Source: a virus. From it: a DNA stretch of 64,000 nt. The notes beneath the pieces are model-generated. The model was not told the origin of the DNA, made no database searches, and was given only the letters and a program-made list of their open reading frames with translations. The stretch is from positions 62,001-126,000 of the IMG/VR virus record IMGVR_UViG_3300035698_013060; one strand, 5' to 3'. Position 1 is the first letter of the stretch; every line of letters starts with the position of its first letter. Position numbers and translations under genes: made by a program. Of the stretch, positions 19,722-62,032 are shown in pieces.

Positions 19722-19806
19722 GTCTCATTCTCCTATTTGGTGCTGGATCTTTTTGTGTATACTCACGTTTTCTGGACTCTGGTTCCTGATTCGATGTTTC
19801 CGAACC

Positions 19807-22465: not shown

Positions 22466-24124
22466 TTAACTCTCCTTTTCAAAAACAAGGCATCCGCAAT
22501 CATAGATCCTGTAAAATCCATTAGCCTTCATATTTTCACCTTCTGAAATAGATGAATCAAAGCTTTCAAGCGTATTTGATAAAAGATGCTTTTGATATTT
22601 AAGTCTAGATTCTCTTCTCTTCATTATTCCAACATATGAGTACGAAGGTGTTGACTTTCTCAGTAGCTTGAATCCTAAAGCCTCGTACATTCTACCATTC
22701 CCCCAACGAAGATCACAGTAGCTCACGATCCTTTTAGGAGATTTCCATCTCTCGAAAGAGGCTAGCAGCTTTCCAGCTCCACCCATTACTCTGTGTCCTG
22801 GAAGGGTAGCATATCTTAGCATCTCAGACCCACCGCCGCCGAATCTAGCTTTCCCGAAGGACATGACTGCTACTAGTTCATCTTCCAGAAAAAGTCCAAG
22901 ATTATTAGAAGAGGCTACATCTCCTTGAGTGTGGTTTGCCGTCATGAAGTCTCTTCTTTCTTTGGCGCTAATTTGGAAGACTTCACAGTCTCTAGCTGCT
23001 ACCTTCCAATCGTCATTTCCAAGCAGACTTCGTATCCTGGAACAACAGGCGTTTCTTCTATCTCTCCATTCATCCTCAAAAATATGGATTAGTCTAACCC
23101 CAGTGGCTTGACAAGCTTCGGTCTTTTCTAAGAGATGTCCAGAATCTCTAAACTCATCACTATGCCACCTGAGTCCGTCGAATTCGAAACCTATGGACAA
23201 TGAAGGAACAAAGACATCTATCTCTTTCCCTGAAAGGACTGAGCGGTCACCTTGGACTGGAGGAGATGTATCAATATTTTTGCAACACTCTGACACAAAA
23301 GTCAAAAGTTCGTCTTCGCCTCTAGATATCTGGACTCCACACCTAGGACAACCCTTACCTTGGAGATGATTGACAGGAGTCTGTTCAAATGAACCATGCT
23401 TCGTGCATACTATAGTTACGTTCGAATGACACCCTGAGTAATGACATTTCGAATAATCATACTTAGTTCCATGGACTTCAACTGAACGGTGTATGAACGA
23501 AGTGGCCGCTGCAATCGACTTACTTTTTCCTCTTTTCATCTTTGCACAAACAGGACATCCAGTTCCTTGGTTCATGTGAAGATTAGGGGTTTGATCAAAA
23601 GGACCATGGTTAGGACATACTATAACGACCTTCTTATTGGTACTTACTATTTCTGAGTTTGAGTAGTCATATTTCTTACCATGTTTTATCTTAGACTTCC
23701 TAACGAATTCTTTCTTAGTGAGTCTAGCTCTCCCTACACATGTAGAGCAACCTTTCCCAGCTATATGGTCTGCTGGACGTTGTTCAAAATCTCCATGCTT
23801 TGGACATACTATGACAACAGGTGTACAGTTATTAATGTACAAAACTTTTGAGTAGTCATACTTATTTCCATGCTTTTTTCTAGCTTTATGAGAAAACTCT
23901 TCCACACTGAACTTTTTTCGATTGGAACAAATCGGACAGCCGTGACCTCTTTCATAGTGCCGATACGGATGCTGTTCGAAATCTCCGTGCTTTGGACATG
24001 TTATAATAACCTTATTTTTCTGCCCAGTATACTTTGTCTTATCATAGTTGTACTTATTTCCATGCATTTTTCTTGATCTATGAACGAATTCCTCAGTAGT
24101 AAGTCTAGTGTATCTCATTTTCAA
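22466..24124 (-). CDS. Homing endonuclease-like protein with four zinc-type repeats, 552 aa
   Basis: Four copies of a 60-65 residue repeat (E-F-x-x-[RK]-x-HG-x-KYDYS ... VIxCPKHGxFEQxPxxH ... GCPxC) fill residues 1-255; such repeats bind DNA in mobile endonucleases. Next comes a Vsr/EDxHD-type nuclease region (KEIDVFVPSLSIGFEFDGLRWHSD ... RLIHIFEDEW, about 280-350). The C-terminal part (FMTANHTQGDVASSNNLGLF...YCDLRWGNGRMYEALGF) is also found in some phage homing nucleases. It is more AT-rich by eye than its neighbours and is wedged between a fibre gene and RNAP beta, consistent with a recent insertion. It would cut DNA lacking the insertion. Confidence 0.78.
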   Translation of the reverse strand: MKMRYTRLTTEEFVHRSRKMHGNKYNYDKTKYTGQKNKVIITCPKHGDFEQHPYRHYERGHGCPICSNRKKFSVEEFSHKARKKHGNKYDYSKVLYINNCTPVVIVCPKHGDFEQRPADHIAGKGCSTCVGRARLTKKEFVRKSKIKHGKKYDYSNSEIVSTNKKVVIVCPNHGPFDQTPNLHMNQGTGCPVCAKMKRGKSKSIAAATSFIHRSVEVHGTKYDYSKCHYSGCHSNVTIVCTKHGSFEQTPVNHLQGKGCPRCGVQISRGEDELLTFVSECCKNIDTSPPVQGDRSVLSGKEIDVFVPSLSIGFEFDGLRWHSDEFRDSGHLLEKTEACQATGVRLIHIFEDEWRDRRNACCSRIRSLLGNDDWKVAARDCEVFQISAKERRDFMTANHTQGDVASSNNLGLFLEDELVAVMSFGKARFGGGGSEMLRYATLPGHRVMGGAGKLLASFERWKSPKRIVSYCDLRWGNGRMYEALGFKLLRKSTPSYSYVGIMKRRESRLKYQKHLLSNTLESFDSSISEGENMKANGFYRIYDCGCLVFEKES

Positions 24125-24174
24125 CTCCTTTTAGTGAATTCTTATTTTGATTAATTGTTAATTCTCGTTATTAA

Positions 24175-24198
24175 CAGGTCATCCCGAAGAATGACCTG
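24175..24198 (-). terminator. Terminator after RNAP beta
   Basis: CAGGTCAT/ATGACCTG (8 bp) encloses a TCTTCGGG loop (minus strand) 17 bases past the beta stop. Confidence 0.7.
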
Positions 24199-24214
24199 CT
24201 AAGTTAACTTTGAC

Positions 24215-27200
24215 TTAAGAATTCCAGAGTTCCTTGACTTCTCTTTTCAGCTCAACGAGAACCTTATTACAGTACAAGTTAGCGAAGAGATCTACCGTCA
24301 TTCGGCTAATGATTGAAAGCGGAGAGACTACCATATCGATTGGTTCGTCCCCCTGTTCAGACATCGGAGAAACGGAGTCATCAATCACCTCAGAAATGAC
24401 TCCCTTCAAAGCAACCTGAGCCGAAACCTTATCACCGGTGGTACACTCATCCAAATGAGAGATGAAGAAGATGACCATTACACCATCAAAGTCTTTACCA
24501 AAGAGCTTCGGATACATGGTCTGCGTCGTCTTACCAACCTGAATAATGTCCTCAGTCTTGGTCTTCTCTACGATTCCGGCACGACGTTCATTGGCGACAA
24601 CGTATTCATCGATCATCTTCTTTACGGATGGGCCGAACTCTTCCAGAGGTCTATTGTAGAATACTCTGACATCGACAACTTTACCCGTGTACTTGGCCTG
24701 AATAACATTCCGCCCTAACTCCAAAATCTCCTGTCCAAACTCCGAACCCAGACGCTTGAGAACCTCATTGATCTCTGCTTCATCAAAGCTGGACTCGAAG
24801 ATCAAGAGGGGATCAGAGGCCTTGACCTCATCACCTATCTTGGAGAGCTTGGAGATGTTAGAGTTCGGCCCAAGAGCCACAGCCCTCTCAGTCACGACAT
24901 TGAATCCAAGAGCCTTCGACAGATCCCGGGTTGCTACGATGCTATCCTCGAAAGTGTTAGCATCACACATGACTGCTACCTTCGTCAAATAACCATTAGC
25001 ATACTCTGTGGACTTAGCTCCTCCAGAGAAGGGAGATCCAGGTTTGAAGAATGTCTCATCATACGCAAGTATCTTACCTGCTTTGAACTTTGTTCCTACC
25101 TTGAGACCTTGTGGAGTCAAATGAGACTCGATGAAGAACCCAGACTTGACATTCTTAACCAACCTAGGCTTGATATCAATGACACCTTTAGTACCGTCTT
25201 TGTACTTCAGGATGATAACCATATTCTTCAGATCGATCTTGTCTACTTGACCCTCCTGTTTGGCCTTGAAGGCAAAGTCGTCACCGATAACATGGGCCAC
25301 TGCCTTGTGAACCCCGGAACCGATCAGCGGCTTGGAGGTCCTGACTGACGGAGTAACGTGCTTCTGCTGAGTGACGGTCATACCGATTCTTTGGAAGTCA
25401 GCATGAGATACTGTGAACGGATTGAGCAACTCAATCAAACTCAACAGCTCTGAGGGACTCTTGTCATCACTCGAAGGCTCGATGAAACCCCTAACGTCTT
25501 CGACGTCAGCGTTGTATGACAACGATCTCACGACCCCAGCCTTGGAGTCAATCGGTGTAAAGATCCCGAAGGTCCCCTTCATCGTCTCACTGTAAGTACG
25601 GTACTCATCAGTGAAAGCTTCCTCAACGTTGATTCCACCCATGCCTTTAAAGGTCACCTTATCCAGAGCCTCGGACTCTACCAGCGGTGAAAGAAGGGAG
25701 ATGGTCTCTACGTTCTGACTCGCCATGATCTTCTTGACGGGACCATCACGTTTGACTTGCATCTTCCTCGGAGCTCCTGAAGCAGATCGTTCGATCTTAA
25801 GGCTTCTGAAGGCTTCCGCCAAGGTCTGATAGAGAGCTTGGTTGATCATCTCCAAGGACCTGATCCGATAGTTCCTGACATCACTGGCTGGAATGAACTG
25901 GTTGTCAGCAAGGAGAGTATTGCAGTGCAAGAGGAGACCGGTGAAATCGTCAGCCAATCCCATACGACGAAGGACATCAGCCGTGATCGGGTCAATCAGT
26001 CTCTGCCAGAAGTTCTGGAAGTTCTTAGAGACACCCCGGTTGTTGTATTCCTCGTCGAAGTAGTCAATATACGGGAGACCTTCAGCAGCCATCGCGTCTA
26101 GACGATATTCTTCCGTTGGCATGTTAGCCACACCGTTCATGATGAGATCGTCTTTGAAATGACGGCGTTCGTAGTAGAGCCATCCATCCTTGAATCGGAT
26201 GACACCCTTACGGAACTTCTCTTCAGTACTCAGATTAGTTCGCTTGGGATGGAACTCATACTTGATCCCATAGCGATCCATCATCTCCTCAAGGCCTTCC
26301 TTGAACGATAGCATCACGCCAACCGGAATAGTCTTGCCTACCATCCTAACGACAGTATACATGTACTTAGTTCCGGAGGTGGTCGAGGATAATTCAGAAG
26401 CGTTTTCTTCTCCTGTCTCATCTACCTTACTGGCAAGAAGCTCTGTCACGTCCAAGAATCCTGGATCGACAGTTTTGCCACTTGAAAGATCATGGAGCAT
26501 CAGAGAATCCTTCTCCTTAAAGAAGAACGCTCCTTTACCCTGGCGGGCAACAACTGTAGCTTCAGGCTTCTCACTAAGGAACGTACCGTACGCTTTACCG
26601 AACTCAGAGCTCAACTCTTCTTCCAACCTCTGAAGAGAGAAATTGATAGTACAGTCTGCTACCTTAATAGTAGAGAAATTCTTGGACAGCTCATCAAAGG
26701 CGAATGAGGTCTGGTAATCTCCATTGGCTTTACTCATGTTACCAGTGGAAATCTCGATACCTTGTCTCTTACGCCCCAAGAAGAACTTACGGAGACTCTC
26801 AACCTGCGTAGAGGCTTTCTGACCTTTACGGTTGACGAATGCCTTGTTGTACAGCGTAGTGATCTGAACTTCGTCGAAACGCTTCTTGACAACAGGTAGG
26901 GCTATGAATTGCTTTGCGATAAACTTCTTGGAGCCATTGAGGAACATGTATCCCTCATCAGTCACCTTTGGAACATCGACGCGGATGGTATGGGTCTTCC
27001 CACCTTTACGTCCTTCACGATAGACAACCCGGATGGTAGTCTTTCGATTGAAGGTATCAGAGCTGTCTTCCATCTGCATGTCTTCGACGAAGAGAGGAAG
27101 ATCTGGGTCATCGTTGAAAGCCCTGATGACCTCCACAGTATCCCTGAGCATTGCTTTCTTCTTGTACGAACTGGAAAGCGTCCGCGCCTTACACGTGCGT

Positions 27201-39838: not shown

Positions 39839-41209
39839 ATGAGCAAACTAGACGTATCTAAGATTGATGCTGAAGGCTTTCCGAACAAAACTGGTATCAG
39901 ACTGAGACCCGATGGTCTCGGAGGTCACCATTGGGATCATTGGTTTCCAATCGGGGGGATCTTTGCTCCAATCAAACTCTCTTATGAAGGTATATTTGCC
40001 TTTGACGTGAGAGATAAGTCTTTGTGGGCTTGGGGAAACAATACAGACGGGAAATGTGGAATCGGGTCAGCTACACTGGCTATACTCTCTCCTACCAGAG
40101 TAGCGGGAGAACACAGGTTCAGGATGATCGGCTGTACCGAGCAGAATAATGAAAATCATGCTGTGGCTCTTCGAGAAGATGGTACTGCATGGTCTTGGGG
40201 TAGTGGTGTTGCTGGTAGACTGGGAGTAGGAAGTATTGTTTCGTACAACTCTCCAGTTTCTGTACACGGAAATCATACTTTCGTGAAAGTCGTAGCTAGA
40301 GACGGGGGATGTACTGGTCTTCGAAAAGATGGTACTGTCTGGTCTTGGGGTAGTGGTGCTGATGGAGTGCTAGGTGATGATACGATTATCGATAAACTAA
40401 CGCCAGTATCTGTCGTTGGAGGACATTCATTCGTCGATATTGAAGTCCACGCTCGACGCATTCTTGCCATTAAAGAAGATGGCACTGTATGGTCTTGGGG
40501 AAACAATGATAATGGGACGCTTGGACTCGGTGATATAGTACACCGATCATCTCCTGTGATGATTGTAGGTCATGTCTTCACCAGAATCGGAACTAGCAAT
40601 GCCTGGGGTGATTTCGTTGACTCTTCTTATGGTTTCAAGGAGGATGATTCTCTTTGGATGTGGGGAAACGGGACATATGGAGTATTAGGAAATGGATCTA
40701 TAAGCGATAAGTTTGTGCCCACTTCCGTTAGTGGCGGACACAATTTTGTCGATATCCAGGTCTATGACCATGTTATAGCTCTTCGAGAAGATGGTACTGC
40801 ATGGTCTTGGGGTCACAACCTAAATGGAGAAATTGGTAACAATACTTCTCCTACAGATCTCAATGTACCAACCTCTGTCAACGGAGGGCATATTTTCGTT
40901 AAAGTCGCCAGGCTTCACAGTTCCTCGTACGGCATAGACGAGAATGGACAAGTGTGGTCGTGGGGATTTAACACATTCGGAGAACTTGGAGACGGAACTA
41001 CAATAGGTAAATTGGTGCCGGTGTCTGTAACAGGAAATCATTCCTTTGTAGACATCATTGGAGCAAACGAGGCCACGATAGCAGCCAGAAAGGACGATGG
41101 TTCTCTCTGGATGTGGGGATCTCATGGCGATGGGCAATGTGGCGATGGTACAGCTATCACTGACGCTAAACCCGATCCTGTCATGGTACTCCATAATTTC
41201 GGTTGGTAA
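39839..41209 (+). CDS. RCC1-repeat beta-propeller protein 2, 456 aa
   Basis: The ATG follows AGGAGACTTACGA. About seven RCC1 blades occupy residues 55-450: AWGNNTDGKCGIG, SWGSGVAGRLGVG, SWGSGADGVLGDD, SWGNNDNGTLGLG, MWGNGTYGVLGNG, SWGHNLNGEIGNN and SWGFNTFGELGDG. The boxes LREDGTAWSWG and LRKDGTVWSWG are repeated at DNA level. The N-terminal 50 residues (MSKLDVSKIDAEGFPNKTG) differ from the other two copies apart from a shared MSKL start with the third. It is likely a surface-binding head; length fits one full seven-blade propeller. Confidence 0.85.
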   Translation: MSKLDVSKIDAEGFPNKTGIRLRPDGLGGHHWDHWFPIGGIFAPIKLSYEGIFAFDVRDKSLWAWGNNTDGKCGIGSATLAILSPTRVAGEHRFRMIGCTEQNNENHAVALREDGTAWSWGSGVAGRLGVGSIVSYNSPVSVHGNHTFVKVVARDGGCTGLRKDGTVWSWGSGADGVLGDDTIIDKLTPVSVVGGHSFVDIEVHARRILAIKEDGTVWSWGNNDNGTLGLGDIVHRSSPVMIVGHVFTRIGTSNAWGDFVDSSYGFKEDDSLWMWGNGTYGVLGNGSISDKFVPTSVSGGHNFVDIQVYDHVIALREDGTAWSWGHNLNGEIGNNTSPTDLNVPTSVNGGHIFVKVARLHSSSYGIDENGQVWSWGFNTFGELGDGTTIGKLVPVSVTGNHSFVDIIGANEATIAARKDDGSLWMWGSHGDGQCGDGTAITDAKPDPVMVLHNFGW

Positions 41210-43944: not shown

Positions 43945-45180
43945 TTAGACCTTTACAGGAAAGGTCTTCACTACTTGTACTGGTACGTTGGAATTCAGAT
44001 CAAACCCGTTTCCAAGTCCACCTGCTGTTCCCATACCCCAGCTCCAGACTTCTCCATTGGTTTTGGCTGCACAACAAGTTACAGCTCCAGCCTTGATTTG
44101 CACAAAACTGTGATTTCCAAGAACGGAAACTGGAGAATTAGTGCTACCCGTGCCAATGGTTACACCATTACCAAGCTGTCCATACAAGTTTGATCCCCAA
44201 CACCAGGTGGATCCATCATCTTTCAATCCAATCCCGAAATTGTATCCTAAATCAGCTTGGACAAAAAGGTGAATGTCAACATGATTCATCAGTGTTGGAA
44301 CCGTTCGGGACAGGTTGTCACCAAGTCCGAGAACACCGTTAATGTTGTATCCCCATCCCCAAAACTCACCATTCTCTTTAATGGCTACAACCGCATCATT
44401 ACCATTTCCGCCATTAATCGTTACAAAAGAGTGTCCTCCTGAAACGATCATAGGAGTCATAACTTTGGCATCAGTTATTCCTAATCCGAGGTTTTGATTT
44501 TCATTTGATCCCCAGGCCCAACAAGATCCATCTTCCTTCAGCCCATATGATGTACAGGTACCAATAGCTATATCTACAAAAATATGGCCACCTATGACGG
44601 AAGTAGGAGTGTACTTATCGTTCTCTTCGAATACGCTATAGTTGTTTTGACCGAGCTGTCCATATCCATTACGGCCCCAGCACCAACAATGCCCGTTTGT
44701 ATCCAACGCCATGGCATTAGTTAACCCAGCAACGGCTTTCGCAAAGATATGTCCTCCATGAACAGAAATTGGCGTCATCTCTTGGCTTTTTCCTGGGTAC
44801 GAGTTATCGCCAAGTATTCCTGAACCGTTATAACCCCAAATCCATAGTTCTCCATTCTCTTTGATTCCCATATTTTTGTAGTGTCCTCCATACACTCCTG
44901 CGAATGTGTGATTACCAAAGACAGATACAGGAGAATTGTAATTCGTTCCCATGTTATTCTGTCCAAGCTGTCCATACAAGTTTGATCCCCAACACCAAGC
45001 TTTTCCATCACCATCCAATACTACGTTGCTGTATCCACAAGATCCTTTTCCAATAGGACCCCACTGGTCCCTCCGATGCGTAGCATCCATCAAAGAGGTA
45101 AGTTTCCCCCCTCCAGGAATCAGAACTCTAGAAACATCTGCAAGTTCTGTTTTGAAATTGTCAATCTGTAGCTTGCTCAT
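43945..45180 (-). CDS. RCC1-repeat beta-propeller protein 3, 411 aa
   Basis: The ATG at 45180 overlaps the upstream stop (ATGA) and has AGAGGAG upstream; an upstream extension to 45288 lacks a ribosome site. RCC1 blades include CWGSNLYGQLGQN, IWGYNGSGILGDN, CWGRNGYGQLGQN, AWGSNENQNLGLG, GWGYNINGVLGLG, CWGSNLYGQLGNG and SWGMGTAGGLGNG. The N-terminus MSKLQIDNFKTELADVSR is a distinct attachment segment. It is coupled to a 591-aa structural protein, which strongly supports a virion location. By eye it is more AT-rich than its neighbours. Confidence 0.85.
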   Translation of the reverse strand: MSKLQIDNFKTELADVSRVLIPGGGKLTSLMDATHRRDQWGPIGKGSCGYSNVVLDGDGKAWCWGSNLYGQLGQNNMGTNYNSPVSVFGNHTFAGVYGGHYKNMGIKENGELWIWGYNGSGILGDNSYPGKSQEMTPISVHGGHIFAKAVAGLTNAMALDTNGHCWCWGRNGYGQLGQNNYSVFEENDKYTPTSVIGGHIFVDIAIGTCTSYGLKEDGSCWAWGSNENQNLGLGITDAKVMTPMIVSGGHSFVTINGGNGNDAVVAIKENGEFWGWGYNINGVLGLGDNLSRTVPTLMNHVDIHLFVQADLGYNFGIGLKDDGSTWCWGSNLYGQLGNGVTIGTGSTNSPVSVLGNHSFVQIKAGAVTCCAAKTNGEVWSWGMGTAGGLGNGFDLNSNVPVQVVKTFPVKV

Positions 45181-46952
45181 ACTTCTACTCCTCTTACGTT
45201 CTTGAATTGCTTCAGGTCGGCATACAGAGCCACATAGTGTGTTGTGTTGAAAAATGGATTCTGGACTGTAAGAATCTTCTCTTCCCAATCCATCGACAAC
45301 TTGGATTGATCTAGGTAATCAGCACCCTTCTGTATGACTCTGATCCCGAAGAAGACATCGTTGTCAGTTCCAGCTGCAATATTGGAATCGATGACATTCT
45401 CTACGAGTCCAAGATGGCCCCTGAGATGGACTAGGTCCTCGGTCAAGGTCGTCAAGACGGTGCCGAACCTCGGAACTACTGAGACTTCTGCCAACCACAA
45501 CTTACAGGCCTGTTGGACCGTCGGTTTAATGGTGATGGAACAGATGTCGTTCGGGATAGGAATTCCCAGCTCAAAGGTCTGATACTTACTGGGCCAGGTG
45601 AATCTGAATCTTGAGAGGAACTGTTCCGCCTCATAGTTCCCGAAGATCACGTCGAACTCCATCCTCTCGATGTCACATGCCGCCCGGATCACGACCTTGT
45701 GACGTCTACGTCTGCGATCGAAGTTGATGTCGTTAGATTGAAATTCGAAGACTCCATCAGTAGATTCTATCAACTGAACGCTCTCACCTTCTACGTCGAC
45801 AAAGGTAGTTTCCTCTGCGAATACCGTATTCAGAGCTCCTATCCCACCATTCCATCCATCAACTAGAACCAGTCCGGGACCGTTGTCTATGAAAGTACTA
45901 CCCTTGATAGGCCAAGGATTCTTCTCATCTCCATAGACTGGGACGGACTGATCGGTGGAAGCTGGAGCTTCAGTCACGAAACCCTTGAAGAAGACCAACT
46001 GTTTCCCATCCTCAAGCTCCGATTTCGGAGAGATGGCCAATCTCGTGACAGCAACCGAAGGTGTGAGAGACTCTCTCAGGACGTCTTCTATGACTTCTCC
46101 ATAGCTCGGATCGAAGTCTCTGGTCTCAACAGCAAAGTTGGTCGGAGTATGGAACTGGACTTGACCTGAGAAGGTAATCTCTCCCCGGCTCTTGGACTGG
46201 TCCTGTTCTTGTAGTTCTCCGGAAGGAAGTGAATCGAACTTGAGCAGCAGGTTGGAAGTATAGTTGAAGATGTAGAATGGTCTTGCCTTAGAAGGATCCA
46301 CGATCTCGTTTATGGCCTGGCGAGAACTACCCCGTAAGACTTCCAAGAAGGAGGCCCTATCGGTCTCATCTTCCAGATCCATGTCATATTCACCTGCCAG
46401 CGCGTAGACGATAATGTTCGGTATGACAGCTGACATGGGGTGACGGTTCATATAGAAGAACTCGTTGAAAATTACTCCATGCTTCAACCATGACATCGCA
46501 TCCCACATCGACATTTCACCATCTGTTCGAATGGCGACCTCAAAGTTCAACCTATGGAACTTCGGAAGAGTGAAGGCATACCTGTCGTACTTCTCATCAA
46601 AGAAGATATGAGGATAACTCCCAGCCATCTCGTTAAGATGACCGTGATTCATCGCTATGTGCTTCCACTTGTTCTCAGTGGGGTTCTCAGAAATAGTCTC
46701 TTCCATCGTGTAGATGGGCTTGATGGACAAAGCCGGAGTCTTCCTGATGAATTCATCAGAGACCTTATCGGTAGTCTGCCTTTCCTCCAAGTGCCTCTGT
46801 TCTCTGACAGAGATACTTTCCGACCCGATCACTACGTCCTTGAAGTACCCGTGAGGAAATTTCCGGATGAAGAAGTCAGACAACACCCTCGCGGTCTGCG
46901 AGAGAACGTAGCTGATGTTGCCTGTGGCAGTGAATATCTTAGTTGAATTCAT
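45177..46952 (-). CDS. Virion structural protein, 591 aa
   Basis: The ATG at 46952 (MNSTKIFTATGNISYVL) is preferred to the upstream frame start, because that part crosses a terminator. The protein is beta-rich with long alternating segments. Its C-terminal 180 residues (RFRFTWPSKYQTFELGIPIPNDI...KLWLAEVSVVP) look like a carbohydrate-binding-type or adaptor beta-sandwich. It is coupled to RCC1 protein 3, so it may anchor that propeller to the virion. Confidence 0.65.
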   Translation of the reverse strand: MNSTKIFTATGNISYVLSQTARVLSDFFIRKFPHGYFKDVVIGSESISVREQRHLEERQTTDKVSDEFIRKTPALSIKPIYTMEETISENPTENKWKHIAMNHGHLNEMAGSYPHIFFDEKYDRYAFTLPKFHRLNFEVAIRTDGEMSMWDAMSWLKHGVIFNEFFYMNRHPMSAVIPNIIVYALAGEYDMDLEDETDRASFLEVLRGSSRQAINEIVDPSKARPFYIFNYTSNLLLKFDSLPSGELQEQDQSKSRGEITFSGQVQFHTPTNFAVETRDFDPSYGEVIEDVLRESLTPSVAVTRLAISPKSELEDGKQLVFFKGFVTEAPASTDQSVPVYGDEKNPWPIKGSTFIDNGPGLVLVDGWNGGIGALNTVFAEETTFVDVEGESVQLIESTDGVFEFQSNDINFDRRRRRHKVVIRAACDIERMEFDVIFGNYEAEQFLSRFRFTWPSKYQTFELGIPIPNDICSITIKPTVQQACKLWLAEVSVVPRFGTVLTTLTEDLVHLRGHLGLVENVIDSNIAAGTDNDVFFGIRVIQKGADYLDQSKLSMDWEEKILTVQNPFFNTTHYVALYADLKQFKNVRGVEV

Positions 46953-47532: not shown

Positions 47533-47630
47533 TGGTCTCGGGGGCGGGACTCGAACCCGCAACGGCCTCCTCATTTCCGGACTTTATAACCTACCGGCAG
47601 GAACACGTCTACCAATTTTGTTACCCCGAG
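47533..47630 (-). tRNA. tRNA-like gene with expanded anticodon domain; anticodon not assignable
   Basis: A 7-bp acceptor stem (CTCGGGG/CCCCGAG), discriminator A, encoded CCA, a perfect 5-bp T stem (GCGGG/CCCGC) with loop TTCGAGT, and a Leu-like D loop with AATTGGTAGAC are all present. The segment between D and T arms is 42 bases, about ten longer than in ordinary Leu or Ser tRNAs. No 5-bp stem with a 7-base loop can be drawn in it. The best pairing is TCCT-G-CCGG, a 13-base loop (TAGGTTATAAAGT), CCGG-AAATG-AGGA. It is either a degenerate tRNA, a tRNA with a small insertion, or a special tRNA-like RNA. Confidence 0.65.
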
Positions 47631-49962: not shown

Positions 49963-50676
49963 CTAGAAGGGGATATTGTCACTGTGCTCGGGACTAATAT
50001 CTGTTTCATCACCCATTGGGAGGAGACCACTTATCTCGGAGACGAATTCCTCTAAGGTCCTAGAGGGGTTGTATCGTATATCCAATTTGAGGATCTTATT
50101 GATCTCCATTATGTCTTCTTTCCGACGAAGGAGAGCGCATTCAAGCTTCTTTAGCGTATCTCTGTTCATATCCCTGTGGTATTGCTTCACAAACTCCCGG
50201 ACGTTCCCATGAACGGCCGAGATCGGGATGAGAACCTTACCAGAATGAACGAGGTCATGGACAGTCTTGGAGAGCGGTACGACTCCTACCATATCTTTAT
50301 AGTGGAGTCTTATTACTTCATTCGCTATAGTGAATGAGCTAAAGGGTTTTTCGTTTTTCCTGATGAATTGATTAGCGACTGCATCAGTTATCTCATACAA
50401 TGTCAAGGGACTATGATGAATCTCAATCCTGACATCCTGAGATGTAACTTTAGATAAGAAAATATCCTCATCCAGGTCGACTTCATCTCTCAGGTAGGTA
50501 ACATAATCCTTGTATTCCAAACACCGACGAATGATGGACTCCACAGCTTTGACAAAGCGGTCCCACCGTTTCTTGTCTATAGCGTACGAAGGATAAAATT
50601 CAACTAAGCCGTAGCTGTCGCCATCGACCCCGTCAACTTCTCTTTCTATCTCTCTATCGTTTTTGCTCTTGGGCAT
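49963..50676 (-). CDS. Paralogous unknown protein A with conserved His motifs, 237 aa
   Basis: The ATG at 50676 (MPKSKNDREI) has CCGGAGAG upstream. It shares with the protein at 52147-52866 the segments VxIEIHHxPLTL, TxAxEVxxxHxxxxVGxxPLSxTxHDLVHSGKV and GNVxxFxxxY. The four or five conserved histidines (IHH, H, HDLVHSGK) could form a metal site. It lies just upstream of a large apparently non-coding RNA region. I recognise the type only as a recurrent unknown of large phages; no function is known to me. Confidence 0.65.
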   Translation of the reverse strand: MPKSKNDREIEREVDGVDGDSYGLVEFYPSYAIDKKRWDRFVKAVESIIRRCLEYKDYVTYLRDEVDLDEDIFLSKVTSQDVRIEIHHSPLTLYEITDAVANQFIRKNEKPFSSFTIANEVIRLHYKDMVGVVPLSKTVHDLVHSGKVLIPISAVHGNVREFVKQYHRDMNRDTLKKLECALLRRKEDIMEINKILKLDIRYNPSRTLEEFVSEISGLLPMGDETDISPEHSDNIPF

Positions 50677-50714
50677 AGTTCTCTCCGGAATTGTGATTAT
50701 GAAGAAGAAATGAA

Positions 50715-51304
50715 AGTCCTGTGAAGGACTATCATTCTCGCGTTGTTCTGTACTACATCGATACACGTACAGAACGGTGGCTACGCAGCTGGAGGCCTAT
50801 TGAGGGCTTAATGACTGCGCGGTTTCCTAGCCATGGCGTGGTGAAGGTTTTATGGTCTCTCACCAAACCTGATAGGACTCCCCTTCCGCCAAATCAGAAC
50901 GGTATCTGTAGGGAGACTCAACTGGGTCCATTCGGGCCCGGAGGAGCATGGCTTTTTGACGGGCCACATCGCGATGATAGATATATTCACCCGTCGCGCG
51001 TTCGAGTGCCCTTCTATCCTCAGGGAGGACTTTGCGAAGCAGGTCCCATGACCTTTTTCCTTGTAGAGGTGGATTCGTATCCACTTGCTGCTTCGACGGC
51101 CTGTCAGGTGGCAATCGGCGGATGCACTTTCCCTCCGCAGGAGCTCCTCTTACCTCGGAGCATGGTTGGGAAGGGGTTGAACTGGAGGCTGTGGACTAGT
51201 CTCACCGATGATTCCAAGCATCTTCGAGGAGGGGTTGAGGTCAGTGTCCAACCGACCTATCCTCCTGAATCGAATAGGGACCAAGGAGTCTCATAGCGAG
51301 ACTC
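50715..51304 (+). ncRNA. Candidate large structured non-coding RNA (about 590 nt)
   Basis: No frame here has a convincing start or protein-like composition. Hairpins readable by eye are: AGTCCT-GTGA-AGGACT (50715-50730, GNRA loop); a 9-bp stem GTTCTGTAC/GTACAGAAC (50745-50775); AGGTTT/AAACCT (50845-50870); GGGTCC-ATTC-GGGCCC (50924-50939, one U-G); GACGGG/CCCGTC (50958-50995); AGGTC-CCAT-GACCT (51041-51054); AGGTGGAT-TCGT-ATCCACTT (51067-51086, one G-U); GCGGA/TCCGC (51118-51138); GCTCC/GGAGC (51143-51161); a nested AGGAGG...GGTTG/CAACC...CCTCCT (51227-51266); and GAGTCTC/GAGACTC (51286-51304). The GNRA loop and G-U pairs favour the plus strand. Ends are approximate, since CTGGAG (50789) can also pair with CTCCAG (51310). 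Confidence 0.7.
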
Positions 51305-51413
51305 AGATTCTCCAGTTCGTCTTAGTAATATGATATAGAAAAGGCATTAGTTACGTCTGGTATCTCAAGACTCCATAGTAAGCCATACACGCATGCTCAC
51401 TCCATTTCAAATA

Positions 51414-51860
51414 CTACTTCTCGCGGGCAACGCCCTTCATCTTCTCGAAGGTACGCAGACCACCCATACCAAGCATCGCTAGGACCAGCTGCATGAGTTG
51501 TCCCACCTGGATCTTTGGTAGCTCAGCGAGGGCCAGATTCTCAGGCTTGAAGAATACTACCATCCACTCAGCCATAGGTGCTCCGAGGAAAGACCAGAAG
51601 ATTCCCATGCCACAAACCCAACCGATAAATGGTCTCCAACCTGCAACGAAGATCGACTTGTGAGCGGCTTCAACCTTGTTGACATCGAGCTGGGCTTTAC
51701 TGATGTCCATCAAGGCCATACCGAAATCGTTCTCGAAGTCAGCTTGCTTCTCCTCAAGGAGTTGCTGAGCTTTCTCTCGTGCGTGTTTATCCGGGATAAG
51801 TCTGTCGAGTGTACTCTCCAGGATTCTCATTGCTGGTGCTGCTAAAACACTCCAGATCAT
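51414..51860 (-). CDS. Holin (3TM superfamily-like), 148 aa
   Basis: The middle has the signature KSIFVAGWRPFIGWVCGMGIFW (residues about 67-88), typical of Holin_3TM proteins, followed by a second hydrophobic stretch (PMAEWMVVFF) and a third (LMQLVLAMLGMGGLRTFEKM). The N-terminal 60 residues form a helical, charged region. It would form membrane lesions that release endolysin at the end of infection. The ribosome site is CGAGGAGAAC. No endolysin is seen next to it. Confidence 0.8.
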   Translation of the reverse strand: MIWSVLAAPAMRILESTLDRLIPDKHAREKAQQLLEEKQADFENDFGMALMDISKAQLDVNKVEAAHKSIFVAGWRPFIGWVCGMGIFWSFLGAPMAEWMVVFFKPENLALAELPKIQVGQLMQLVLAMLGMGGLRTFEKMKGVAREK

Positions 51861-52146: not shown

Positions 52147-52866
52147 TTATCCGCGTCCGGTGTCCTTACTCTCCCTAGAAATGGCTTCCGTTAGAGCTGC
52201 TATCACATCGTCCAACGTCAATGGCTCTCCGTCTACTCTAACCTCAGGGGTTGAAAACTCAAGAGTTCCTTCAGGAACCAATTCTCCTCGTTTAGAAAGC
52301 TCTATTGCTAATAGAATCTTGGAGAGGGTCTCTTCATCGATTCCTCCAACGTACGCCCTAAGAAAACCCCCTACGTTTCCGTAGATCTGAGACATACTGA
52401 CAGTTACTTTCCCAGAATGTACTAGATCGTGGATGGTTTCTGACAGTGGTAGAATTCCAACTAGTCCCATAAAGTGAGCAGCCAGGACTTCATGAGCTAC
52501 TGTCATTGTCGTTATGGTATCCCCTTGGGACAGCATATGGTCAGCAACGATCTCGATAATATCGTGAAGTGTCAAAGGACAATGATGGATTTCGATATCT
52601 ACTTTATCTTCTCCTATGATGTTTCCTAGAAAGGAACAGTTGTTTAGGTCTAGATCAATCTTACAACCGGAAATAAAGAGCTTGTATTCGATGCTAGATC
52701 GAATCATGCCTTTGACACTGTTCACAAATCTAAGCCAGTCTTTTCCGCTCAGTTCCTTGCTGAAGAAGGATTGGACGTAGAATCCACCCTCAGAGTGAAG
52801 CTCTGGACCATCTGCTGTCTCAACTGACGTTATGTTATGTAAACCATCGTGATCACTACTGTCCAT
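52147..52866 (-). CDS. Paralogous unknown protein B with conserved His motifs, 239 aa
   Basis: This is the paralogue of the protein at 49963-50676. Shared blocks are WxRFVxxVxxxIRxxxEYK, IEIHHCPLTLHDI, AHEVLAAHFMGLVGILPLSETIHDLVHSGKV and YGNVGGF. Outside these the N- and C-termini differ. The ATG has CAGGAGG upstream. The two copies flank the putative large RNA and the holin gene, in the same orientation. Conserved histidines suggest a metal-dependent or nucleic-acid-binding protein. No function is known to me. Confidence 0.65.
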   Translation of the reverse strand: MDSSDHDGLHNITSVETADGPELHSEGGFYVQSFFSKELSGKDWLRFVNSVKGMIRSSIEYKLFISGCKIDLDLNNCSFLGNIIGEDKVDIEIHHCPLTLHDIIEIVADHMLSQGDTITTMTVAHEVLAAHFMGLVGILPLSETIHDLVHSGKVTVSMSQIYGNVGGFLRAYVGGIDEETLSKILLAIELSKRGELVPEGTLEFSTPEVRVDGEPLTLDDVIAALTEAISRESKDTGRG

Positions 52867-53722: not shown

Positions 53723-56581
53723 ATGATACAGAACTTTCCAGACCTCCCGAAAAGTTCGGCTGATGAGATATCAGCGCTCCTGGAGTTTTGTCGGAGCCTG
53801 GTATTTAAAGACTCGGCTAAAGCCGAGACGGCCGAGACTTTGTTGTCCTCTAAGGCAGCATATAATCTCATTAGTGCTGAGTTAGGATTTACCCCGTTCG
53901 ATGAGTCTAGTGACCCCACTGGAGAAATGGCGCAGAATGAGATCGATGATTACGTAGAGACTAACGAGTACTACGTTACCTACTTGGAAAACCTTGGTCT
54001 AAGAGAGTCTGGTACTCTAGAAACATCAGACCAGTATAAGATGGTGGTAGCTGTAGTTAAGGCTAGAACTGCTGACGACCATGAGATAATCTTCTATCCC
54101 GAGAGCTTCGACCGGAAGCTCCGGGGTTTGTTTCTCGATTTCTTCAACACTAGTCTACACTATTACAATTCTGTTCTTCATAATGAGGGACTGGGTAAGT
54201 ACGAGCGGTACTGGAATTACGTCAACTTTGTCGTCAGTATCATGACTCTCGAGCGAATGATCACGGCCCGCATGGACTTAGCGTTTGATATCGACGCATT
54301 CGACGAACGGTCCATACGAAACATGTTTGCATCCTATGGTCTAGATTTCTTCGAGATCGTCCCGGACAAGTACCGGCGGCGCATCTTAAAGAACATCAAC
54401 TATCTTCTGGAACACAAGGGTACGACACAGGCACTTGTCAATGTCATGCAGATTTTCGGGTTTGACGACATCAAGCTTTTCAAGTACTACTTGGTCAAGG
54501 ATTTTGCCCGAGAGGGTGATGGTTCGATCAGTATGCCTCCAAACTCGTACCTCCAATTTGCTCAGGTAGAACATGATGAGGAGAACCTTGAAGCTGCTTT
54601 CTTGAGTTCGACGACTAAATGGGAAACGTTTGATTCAGTGACCGGCTCTGATCCTTACTGGCATGCTACTGAGGAAGAGATTGCAGTCCATGACTTCACA
54701 TACCTCAATACCAAGTACCTCGGAATCGACGTCAGTATTGATATGTTGAAGAGTACTCTGAACCACTCTTATTTCTACAACTACTTGTACCAGTTCAAGA
54801 AGGCTGGCGACTTGGCCATTCCTGGGAACTACAAGATGACGGTCCAGAGTTCCAAGATCAGTGGAGAACCTATTCACATCTTGGATATGATGATAGCACT
54901 CCACGCCCTTACCATGGAGATCATGGGGTGGGAAGATGTAATCGTCAAGGACTACTACCAAGTGGCGTACACATTTGCAAACGCCCATAGGAACAAGCCT
55001 ACCTTTCAAGAAGATGATCAAGCAGCTTGGGACGTTGATCTCCCAGCTTCTTCTGAAGGAGAAAAAGCTGCAGCCTTTATGGGCAATATCGAGAATCTCC
55101 TCGGGGTCGATTGGGATGATGTTGACATAGCTACCCTCAGAGATGACGTTAGGACATATCTCGAGTCCCTACCGGACAGAGGAGATCTGACTCCAGGAGA
55201 AAATTCCAACTACGACTCAGCTGACCTGGATGGTAAAGAGACGACTCCATACGACTTCGTCAGGACATACCAGGACAACCTGAAGTATGCCGCCAAGCTC
55301 AGGCAGTTGATGATAGACGAGACTAATAAGTCTCGCTATGAAGTCCTGAAGGACATCTACAACTACAAGTTCATTGCTCAATTCAATACTGAGCTCTTCA
55401 GTGGCTACGATACCTATGCTGAGTACTTGGCAGCTGAGAGCCCAGGACTCTATGCATTCATCAGTGGTAAGGATTCGAACGACGCCTTGTATGACATCAT
55501 CACCTTGATCGACAACTTCATTGACGACGCTGACGTCATCGTGGAAACATTTGCTGGAGACACTGGACTGATCGACGGAGAGATGAGTGTTACCAACAAC
55601 ATGGAGTTGTTTAACCTGACTCGGACTTTCATCAAGATGATGGTGGATACTTTCAAGGCATATACCACTCAGTTGAGAGAGTTCTCTGTCTACTACGTTC
55701 ACAGGGATCCATTTGATGATAGGATTCATCTTTTTGATGAGCTCACCCTCGGTCTCCATGGAGGCTTCTACGGGACAGATACTGCAAGGATCTCGGACGA
55801 TGGTATCGGTACAGCAGGAGGACAAGTACATCCGAGGTTCTTGGTATCGGTAGAGTATTCTGATGAGATAGGGATGTACGATAACTACCTTGTGGAACAA
55901 GGTATCAGCGAACCTCCTATTGACTACATGATCCTGGATGATAACGACGACGATCTAGAGGTTTCAGTCAGGACCAGTTACGCTCTTCCGCTTGATATGA
56001 GTGATGAGAGCGATTTCGTCATTCAGTTAGGAGACCTAAGACTAGATCCTTCCACAGGTCAACCTGTTATAGGTTCAACGTGGTATGGATCCATCAGAGC
56101 CTTAGACTCCATGGCCCTTATTTCCATTTTGAAGGTCAAGGACTACACTATCAGAGACGAGCTTCTTGACTGGGCTGAATTCGGTAATATGCCAGGAGAG
56201 GGAGATGCCGTCGGTCTAGGAGATTCATTGTATCCTTCCATCAGGCTCGTCGTCGCTCCCGGAAATCACATAGACGAACAACCCATTAGCGTCGTAGACG
56301 ATGAGCCGGGGTTTGAGCCTTTCCTTCTCAGTAGGCTATCCCCTGGAGACGGCTTCAAGTGGATGGACGGAGACCCACAGACGGACACGCTCGATCTGAC
56401 TTTCTGGGACTCTGTCCTTACGATGATCGAACAGACACCTGGACATGCGTGGTCCGGAGACCCAAATGACTACTTGACCAATCTTTCATTTCACGAGGCC
56501 AGTGACTTTCATTCCAGGTTAGTCAGGACTACTGAGGTGGCCAGGACGAGAGATGCAATAGAAATGACAGTTGTGTCGTAA
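53723..56581 (+). CDS. Large structural protein, baseplate-type, 952 aa
   Basis: This is a long, acidic, Tyr/Asp-rich protein. RRILKNINYLLEHKGTTQALVNVMQIFGF followed by IKLFKYYLVKD (residues about 215-260) resembles a block in large baseplate or tail proteins of myophages (HKGT...FGF...KYY). The rest has no recognised domain. The 119-base gap to the divergent gene should hold its promoter, and the next gene follows after 36 bases. It is probably an early-assembled baseplate wedge or tail component. Confidence 0.65.
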   Translation: MIQNFPDLPKSSADEISALLEFCRSLVFKDSAKAETAETLLSSKAAYNLISAELGFTPFDESSDPTGEMAQNEIDDYVETNEYYVTYLENLGLRESGTLETSDQYKMVVAVVKARTADDHEIIFYPESFDRKLRGLFLDFFNTSLHYYNSVLHNEGLGKYERYWNYVNFVVSIMTLERMITARMDLAFDIDAFDERSIRNMFASYGLDFFEIVPDKYRRRILKNINYLLEHKGTTQALVNVMQIFGFDDIKLFKYYLVKDFAREGDGSISMPPNSYLQFAQVEHDEENLEAAFLSSTTKWETFDSVTGSDPYWHATEEEIAVHDFTYLNTKYLGIDVSIDMLKSTLNHSYFYNYLYQFKKAGDLAIPGNYKMTVQSSKISGEPIHILDMMIALHALTMEIMGWEDVIVKDYYQVAYTFANAHRNKPTFQEDDQAAWDVDLPASSEGEKAAAFMGNIENLLGVDWDDVDIATLRDDVRTYLESLPDRGDLTPGENSNYDSADLDGKETTPYDFVRTYQDNLKYAAKLRQLMIDETNKSRYEVLKDIYNYKFIAQFNTELFSGYDTYAEYLAAESPGLYAFISGKDSNDALYDIITLIDNFIDDADVIVETFAGDTGLIDGEMSVTNNMELFNLTRTFIKMMVDTFKAYTTQLREFSVYYVHRDPFDDRIHLFDELTLGLHGGFYGTDTARISDDGIGTAGGQVHPRFLVSVEYSDEIGMYDNYLVEQGISEPPIDYMILDDNDDDLEVSVRTSYALPLDMSDESDFVIQLGDLRLDPSTGQPVIGSTWYGSIRALDSMALISILKVKDYTIRDELLDWAEFGNMPGEGDAVGLGDSLYPSIRLVVAPGNHIDEQPISVVDDEPGFEPFLLSRLSPGDGFKWMDGDPQTDTLDLTFWDSVLTMIEQTPGHAWSGDPNDYLTNLSFHEASDFHSRLVRTTEVARTRDAIEMTVVS

Positions 56582-61362: not shown

Positions 61363-61806
61363 TCATGTGCTGAATTGCAAGCCCTGGATAGCATTCTGCA
61401 GCGTATTTCCTAGCATCCTCTGGATGATCTCCGGAGCACATTCTATCATGAGCTCCTTCATCCTTTCAGATGCAACGTAACTACATTCACTGCCAGATAA
61501 GGATACTAGACCCCATTGGCCTTGCCACTCAGGACTCATGAAGTACGCCTGCATCTTCTCCGTGATCTCATCAACCAAGAGCTGATGTACTATCGTGTCA
61601 AAGGGAGATTTGACGATCTCACAGTTGTACGGGTGATGATTCTGCTTTCTTTCGTGAGACTTGAAGAAGCTGTCGACAGCTGAATGAACCATCTCCCGCC
61701 ACTTATCCTCTGGAACCATCTCAGCGAACTCCAAGCGGATCTTGTCTTTGATCTGCTCCATGAAGTCATCAGGTGCTTCTTTTGCTATCGCCGTTATCTT
61801 AGCCAC
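61363..61806 (-). CDS. Hypothetical protein, 147 aa
   Basis: The GTG start at 61806 has AAAGGAAG upstream. The sequence is helical and acidic/basic mixed (MEQIKDKIRLEFAEMVPEDKWREMVHSAVDSFFKSHERK), with a Cys in the middle. It is not recognised. It lies 37 bases upstream of the PurC-PurE gene and is probably co-transcribed with it. Confidence 0.55.
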   Translation of the reverse strand: MAKITAIAKEAPDDFMEQIKDKIRLEFAEMVPEDKWREMVHSAVDSFFKSHERKQNHHPYNCEIVKSPFDTIVHQLLVDEITEKMQAYFMSPEWQGQWGLVSLSGSECSYVASERMKELMIECAPEIIQRMLGNTLQNAIQGLQFST

Positions 61807-61825
61807 TGTACTTCCTTTCAGTCTC

Positions 61826-62032
61826 CTACTCCTCAGATCTACTTCTTATCAAGCACTCTTTCGGAAAAGGACACTTCCTTTGTTCGTTATTGTTTCTACA
61901 AGTTTTTGCTGCAGCCTTCCAACACTTTTGAGAACATGCGAATCCAGTGTGTTTACATCTTCTAAGCGAGAGGATGTATCCTCCACCAACTATTTTCTTT
62001 CCACATTCGAGACACACATTTTTCATTTTCAT
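61826..62032 (-). CDS. Small zinc-finger protein, 68 aa
   Basis: CLECGKKIVGGG...RRCKHTGFACSQKCWKAAAKTC...KCPFPKEC has CxxC and other Cys pairs and resembles a TRASH- or FCS-type zinc finger. The start at 62032 or 62026 lacks a clear ribosome site. It may act as a metal or nucleic-acid-binding adaptor. Confidence 0.55.
   Translation of the reverse strand: MKMKNVCLECGKKIVGGGYILSLRRCKHTGFACSQKCWKAAAKTCRNNNEQRKCPFPKECLIRSRSEE

Follow-up and report, generated by a model that had tools for sequence, protein, structure and literature searches.

A candidate large structured non-coding RNA in an orphan intergenic gap of a jumbo phage

The gap and its neighbours

The window analysed here is a stretch of 64,000 nucleotides from a 241 kb virus record, and it contains a gap flanked by a holin gene and one of two phrog_12252 paralogues, both on the minus strand. 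The features of the locus are given below.

47536-47630, minus strand: tRNA-like gene (Rfam tRNA model, 32.1 bits, E 4e-5 in a 321-base search)
49963-50676, minus strand: phrog_12252 paralogue B (E 1.2e-51)
50677-51413: non-coding gap of 737 nt
50703-51318: best-bounded candidate structured RNA
50715-50730: 6-bp hairpin, with a GUGA loop on the plus strand; on the minus strand it is followed by UUUCAUUUCUUCUUC and is weakly terminator-like
50721-51296, plus strand: 191-codon open frame, from GTG at 50721 to TAG at 51296, probably spurious
50745-50775: 9-bp hairpin with a 13-nt loop
51179-51318, minus strand: long interrupted hairpin domain, about 49 bp in a 148-nt fold, closed by GAACUGGAG/CUCCAGUUC
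51318-51342, minus strand: AT-rich TTTTCTATATCATATTAC-(6N)-G resembling an AR9 early promoter, the G being the first base of the hairpin domain
51414-51860, minus strand: holin, GTA_holin_3TM (PF11351, E 2.3e-19; phrog_3427)
52147-52866, minus strand: phrog_12252 paralogue A (E 1.6e-43)

An initial annotation of this DNA had described a gap of some 650 bases between two minus-strand genes; the flanking genes are as it described them, while the true extent is 737 nt. This is the longest wholly orphan gap in the 144 kb of the phage that we examined, and its sequence is present only once in the record. The GC content is 54% over 50715-51304 against a window mean of 48%, which places it in the top 2.7% of 590-nt windows. 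The start of paralogue B is preceded by GGAGAG, which reads as a Shine-Dalgarno-like sequence.

From sequence comparison we assign the phage to the AR9/PBS1/phiR1-37-like jumbo group, because its RNA polymerase fragment (beta-prime, N-terminal) shares 37% identity with the phiR1-37 counterpart over the full length and because it carries two phrog_12252 paralogues, two copies being likewise present in every one of 20 phage records from this group.

The tRNA-like gene that had been noticed 3 kb from the gap is real by the Rfam tRNA model, and it is not listed by the ARAGORN or whole-window Rfam runs. Its anticodon/variable region is enlarged.

Coding capacity, homologues and folding of the gap

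The initial annotation saw no credible gene here. Our coding tests agree with it, but a 191-codon frame spanning the element on the plus strand had been overlooked. Such a length is rare by chance, since only 14 of 5000 dinucleotide shuffles of the gap contain an open frame of at least 191 codons. This frame, open from the start of the gap to its end, might be a genuine protein gene that was acquired recently and whose codon usage is foreign. We consider this quite improbable. A codon model built from 26,139 codons of the phage gives the frame log-odds of -22 bits, and its three-base periodicity (chi2 11.0) is below that of every one of 60 equal-length pieces of called genes (all at least 13.1, median 40). 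No homologue or family of its product was found by HMM or tblastn searches of Pfam, PHROGs, NCBIfam, PDB, phages, plasmids and the IMG/VR and GTDB scans. A single-sequence AlphaFold model of the product has a pLDDT of 30, which is weak evidence against a protein. None of the other frames in the gap scores like a typical gene. The codon test is to be read with caution, as a test of this kind overlooked genuine membrane proteins of relatives, though the 191-codon frame is not obviously one. The off-type codon usage, the weak periodicity and the absence of any homologue among those searches lead us to favour a non-coding gap.

Searches at the RNA and DNA levels gave no relative. It had been suggested that the element recalls the GOLLD and ROOL RNAs and that Rfam should be consulted; there is no match to them at the gathering threshold over the window, and with E values up to 10 the gap matches only an unrelated snoRNA (E 7.2). 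The covariance models of OLE and other Rfam large RNAs have no match in the gap at these thresholds either. A GOLLD, ROOL, group I intron or tRNA identity was rejected using Rfam and ARAGORN, and membership of the GOLLD/ROOL families is not supported by these sequence searches. What the gap shares with ROOL and GOLLD is a similar size class, a phage genome and a tRNA-like gene at 3 kb, these RNAs often being found near tRNA genes (PMC12286853). It differs from them in that Rfam gave no match at the thresholds applied and in that there is one tRNA-like gene instead of an island. Blastn, nhmmer, a scan for the hairpin pattern and a single-sequence covariance model found no DNA homologue across phages, plasmids and the IMG/VR and GTDB scans.

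The helices reported initially are present in the sequence. These include the GUGA-capped hairpin (AGTCCT-GTGA-AGGACT), the 9-bp helix formed by GTTCTGTAC/GTACAGAAC, which has a pair probability of at least 0.95 on either strand, and the stems at 50924-50939 and 51067-51086, each with one G-U pair. At least eleven local helices had been claimed, and we counted 14 non-overlapping stems of at least 6 bp, against 9.9 (sd 1.8) in shuffles, with 6 of 200 shuffles having as many. The hairpin domain at 51179-51318, which on the minus strand runs past 51304, where the initial annotation had ended the element, ranks 8th of 1826 windows by MFE (z -3.3 on the minus strand and -2.2 on the plus), and its closing helix has a pair probability of 0.99 on the minus strand.

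Folding strength was scored against 150 dinucleotide shuffles. The z-scores are -2.5 (plus) and -3.0 (minus) for the whole gap, and -3.2 and -2.7 for 50715-51304. For 50703-51318 they are -3.2 on the plus strand and -4.2 on the minus, the latter somewhat flattered as these bounds were chosen after seeing the folds. Fully coding windows of this phage average z -1.0 (sd 1.2, minimum -3.9), so the folding of the gap is suggestive and not proof. It stands above the shuffles but within the tail of the phage's own windows, ranking 10th of 107 on the plus strand and 15th of 107 on the minus, which is not extreme for the genome.

A second alternative is that the gap is a non-functional or DNA-level spacer, i.e. 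an insertion scar, a decayed gene or a replication or packaging site, with folds that reflect GC content. It would agree with a sequence seen in a single genome, with z-scores that stay within about 2 to 3 sd of those of coding windows and with the frequency of gaps of at least 300 nt in phages of this group. We regard it as unlikely, given that the GC content is raised, that iterons or notable repeats were not found in the gap and that the MFE of 50703-51318 is below that of all 150 shuffles on both strands.

Large non-coding RNAs in related phages

We gathered 77 related phage loci with the phrog_12252 profile. None has a sequence resembling the gap. Two large non-coding regions found among these loci are the following.

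L133:16823-17345, and L152 and L154:16150-16735: conserved, covarying non-coding RNA of about 500 nt with an intrinsic terminator
L123:4530-5425, minus strand: GC-rich non-coding unit of about 900 nt between terminators

L133 and L152 are two distinct phages, and L154 is identical to L152 in this region. The two sequences share about 64% identity over some 500 nt. First, second and third codon positions mismatch at equal rates, and most indels have lengths that are not divisible by three. The consensus fold that RNAalifold computes from both sequences has 80 base pairs, 24 of which are changed on both sides with pairing kept. When the partners are slid by 1-3 columns only 0-3 compensatory pairs remain, and none of 500 shuffles reaches 24. 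As there are two sequences and the structure was derived from them, these controls are biased in its favour, but five compensated pairs fall in a single helix, the one that encloses an invariant AACGUAUG loop. Rfam yields nothing for the L152 region with E values up to 5, and a pattern scan for further members returned those phages only, plus one coincidence. This RNA is probably a new family absent from Rfam, and the presence of at least one large covarying RNA in this phage group is well supported.

The gap of our window lies at the equivalent position. In L152 the order is the RNA, a small membrane-protein gene (minus), phrog_12252 A (minus) and, further on, the homologue of the gene at 53723 (plus), and the window gap is followed likewise; the left neighbours differ. 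The two also have a similar length and belong to the same phage group. What sets them apart is sequence and structure: the conserved blocks (AACGUAUG loop, AAAAGUAGGAA, AGGAUGGUCAU, GUAGAAACGG) and the helix core are absent from the window gap, alignment scores between the two are at shuffle level, and the covariance model of that RNA (R2) reaches at most 1.6 bits on the window with filters off, which is noise. The large RNAs of relatives raise the plausibility of an RNA in the gap, and they are not evidence from the window itself.

The L123 unit has its own terminator and a z-score of -10.8 on the minus strand (14 shuffles); it has no Rfam match and no relative but itself. In the related jumbo phage phiR1-37, RNA-seq revealed an intergenic non-coding RNA, misc_4 (61,640-61,936; PMC4848604). 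Set beside the gap by description, it is shorter (about 297 nt) and sits elsewhere, between g099 and g100.

Other gaps of relatives were rejected as large RNAs. Those in L111, L114, L121 and L146 looked homologous and non-coding but contain a membrane-protein gene, the one in L150 is a tRNA cluster, and those in L122 and L156 were read as arrays of promoter-terminator units. In these arrays (L122:6118-8946 and L156:11080-11996), late-promoter-like sequences (TAACATAATAGTA etc.) and strong terminator-like hairpins are repeated about 100-450 nt apart, and they are possibly clusters of small RNAs.

Strand, transcription signals and the proposed RNA

A plus-strand RNA had been favoured initially. 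Our data do not bear this preference out, as the two strands have much the same z-score over 50715-51304 and two G-U pairs of the 51179-51318 helix favour the minus strand. Points for the minus strand are the shared direction of both flanking genes, a fold with better bounds and an end that weakly resembles a terminator. Points for the plus strand are its higher G+T content and its agreement with the orientation that the L133/L152 RNA has with respect to the genes beside it.

Neither end of the gap carries a recurring promoter motif of the phage, and no clear U-tract terminator was found for it. The early-promoter-like sequence at 51331 (minus) is correctly spaced, but its motif has a single occurrence in the complete record and therefore does not represent a recurring promoter of the phage. 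The AR9 late promoter is AACA-(6N)-TA/G (PMC5312081). The matching motif AACANNNAATY occurs nine times in the window (5.0 expected) and not in the gap; eight of the nine copies are intergenic, seven of these no more than about 105 nt from a called gene. It was seen upstream of genes at 19788, 24149, 28425, 34069, 41315, 53649, 58692 and 59736. The copy at about 24149-24159 precedes a 552-codon frame (22466-24124, minus), which has atypical codon usage and is partly AT-rich (0.37 GC over 23367-24217).

The gap could also belong to a minus-strand late operon (holin, gap, phrog_12252 B) as a long and structured element, either a 5' leader or an intercistronic spacer, which would tune the neighbour's translation or mRNA stability in cis. 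It does lie between co-directional genes, the minus-strand fold of 50703-51318 at least equals the plus-strand one, the start of gene B lies 26 nt beyond position 50703, and AR9 5' UTRs reach 491 nt (PMC5312081). We judge this reading rather unlikely, as the gap exceeds every reported AR9 UTR in length, no recurring promoter motif accompanies it and it is absent from relatives with A and B adjacent.

With moderate confidence, we propose that the gap encodes a phage-specific large structured non-coding RNA. This proposal is based on an orphan gap with raised GC content, negative coding tests, z-scores of -3 to -4, an excess of stems and the RNAs of relatives. Counted against it are z-scores only about 2 to 2.7 sd beyond those of the phage's coding windows, the fully coding window that reaches z -3.9, the lack of a homologue in our searches, the rarity by chance of the 191-codon frame and the lack of a match to the L133/L152 RNA. 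The predicted RNA would be about 600 nt long and made late in infection, either as a free transcript or cut from a late operon. It may work through its fold and not through a protein, serving as a scaffold or binding some partner of the cell or the phage, the scaffold role being suggested by analogy with large phage RNAs only. We infer its transcription, strand, ends, late timing and action in trans.

We know of no function for ROOL, GOLLD and similar large RNAs of phages. If large structured RNAs are also carried by jumbo phages with RNA polymerases of their own, these phages could offer tractable systems, and AR9, PBS1 and phiR1-37 are relatives with laboratory hosts whose equivalent loci could be checked for RNAs. 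Of the two, the covarying L133/L152 RNA is a firmer lead than the gap. We also speculate, with little confidence, that AR9-like jumbo phages keep a slot beside the membrane-protein/phrog_12252 cassette for a large structured late RNA, the sequence of which would change too quickly for homologues to be recognised. The gap, the L133/L152 RNA and perhaps, at another position, the L123 unit would then be independent or diverged occupants and would form a new class of jumbo-phage large RNAs.

Elsewhere in the window, this single phage encodes two RCC1-repeat-like proteins (phrog_4219), at 39839-41209 on the plus strand and 43945-45288 on the minus strand.
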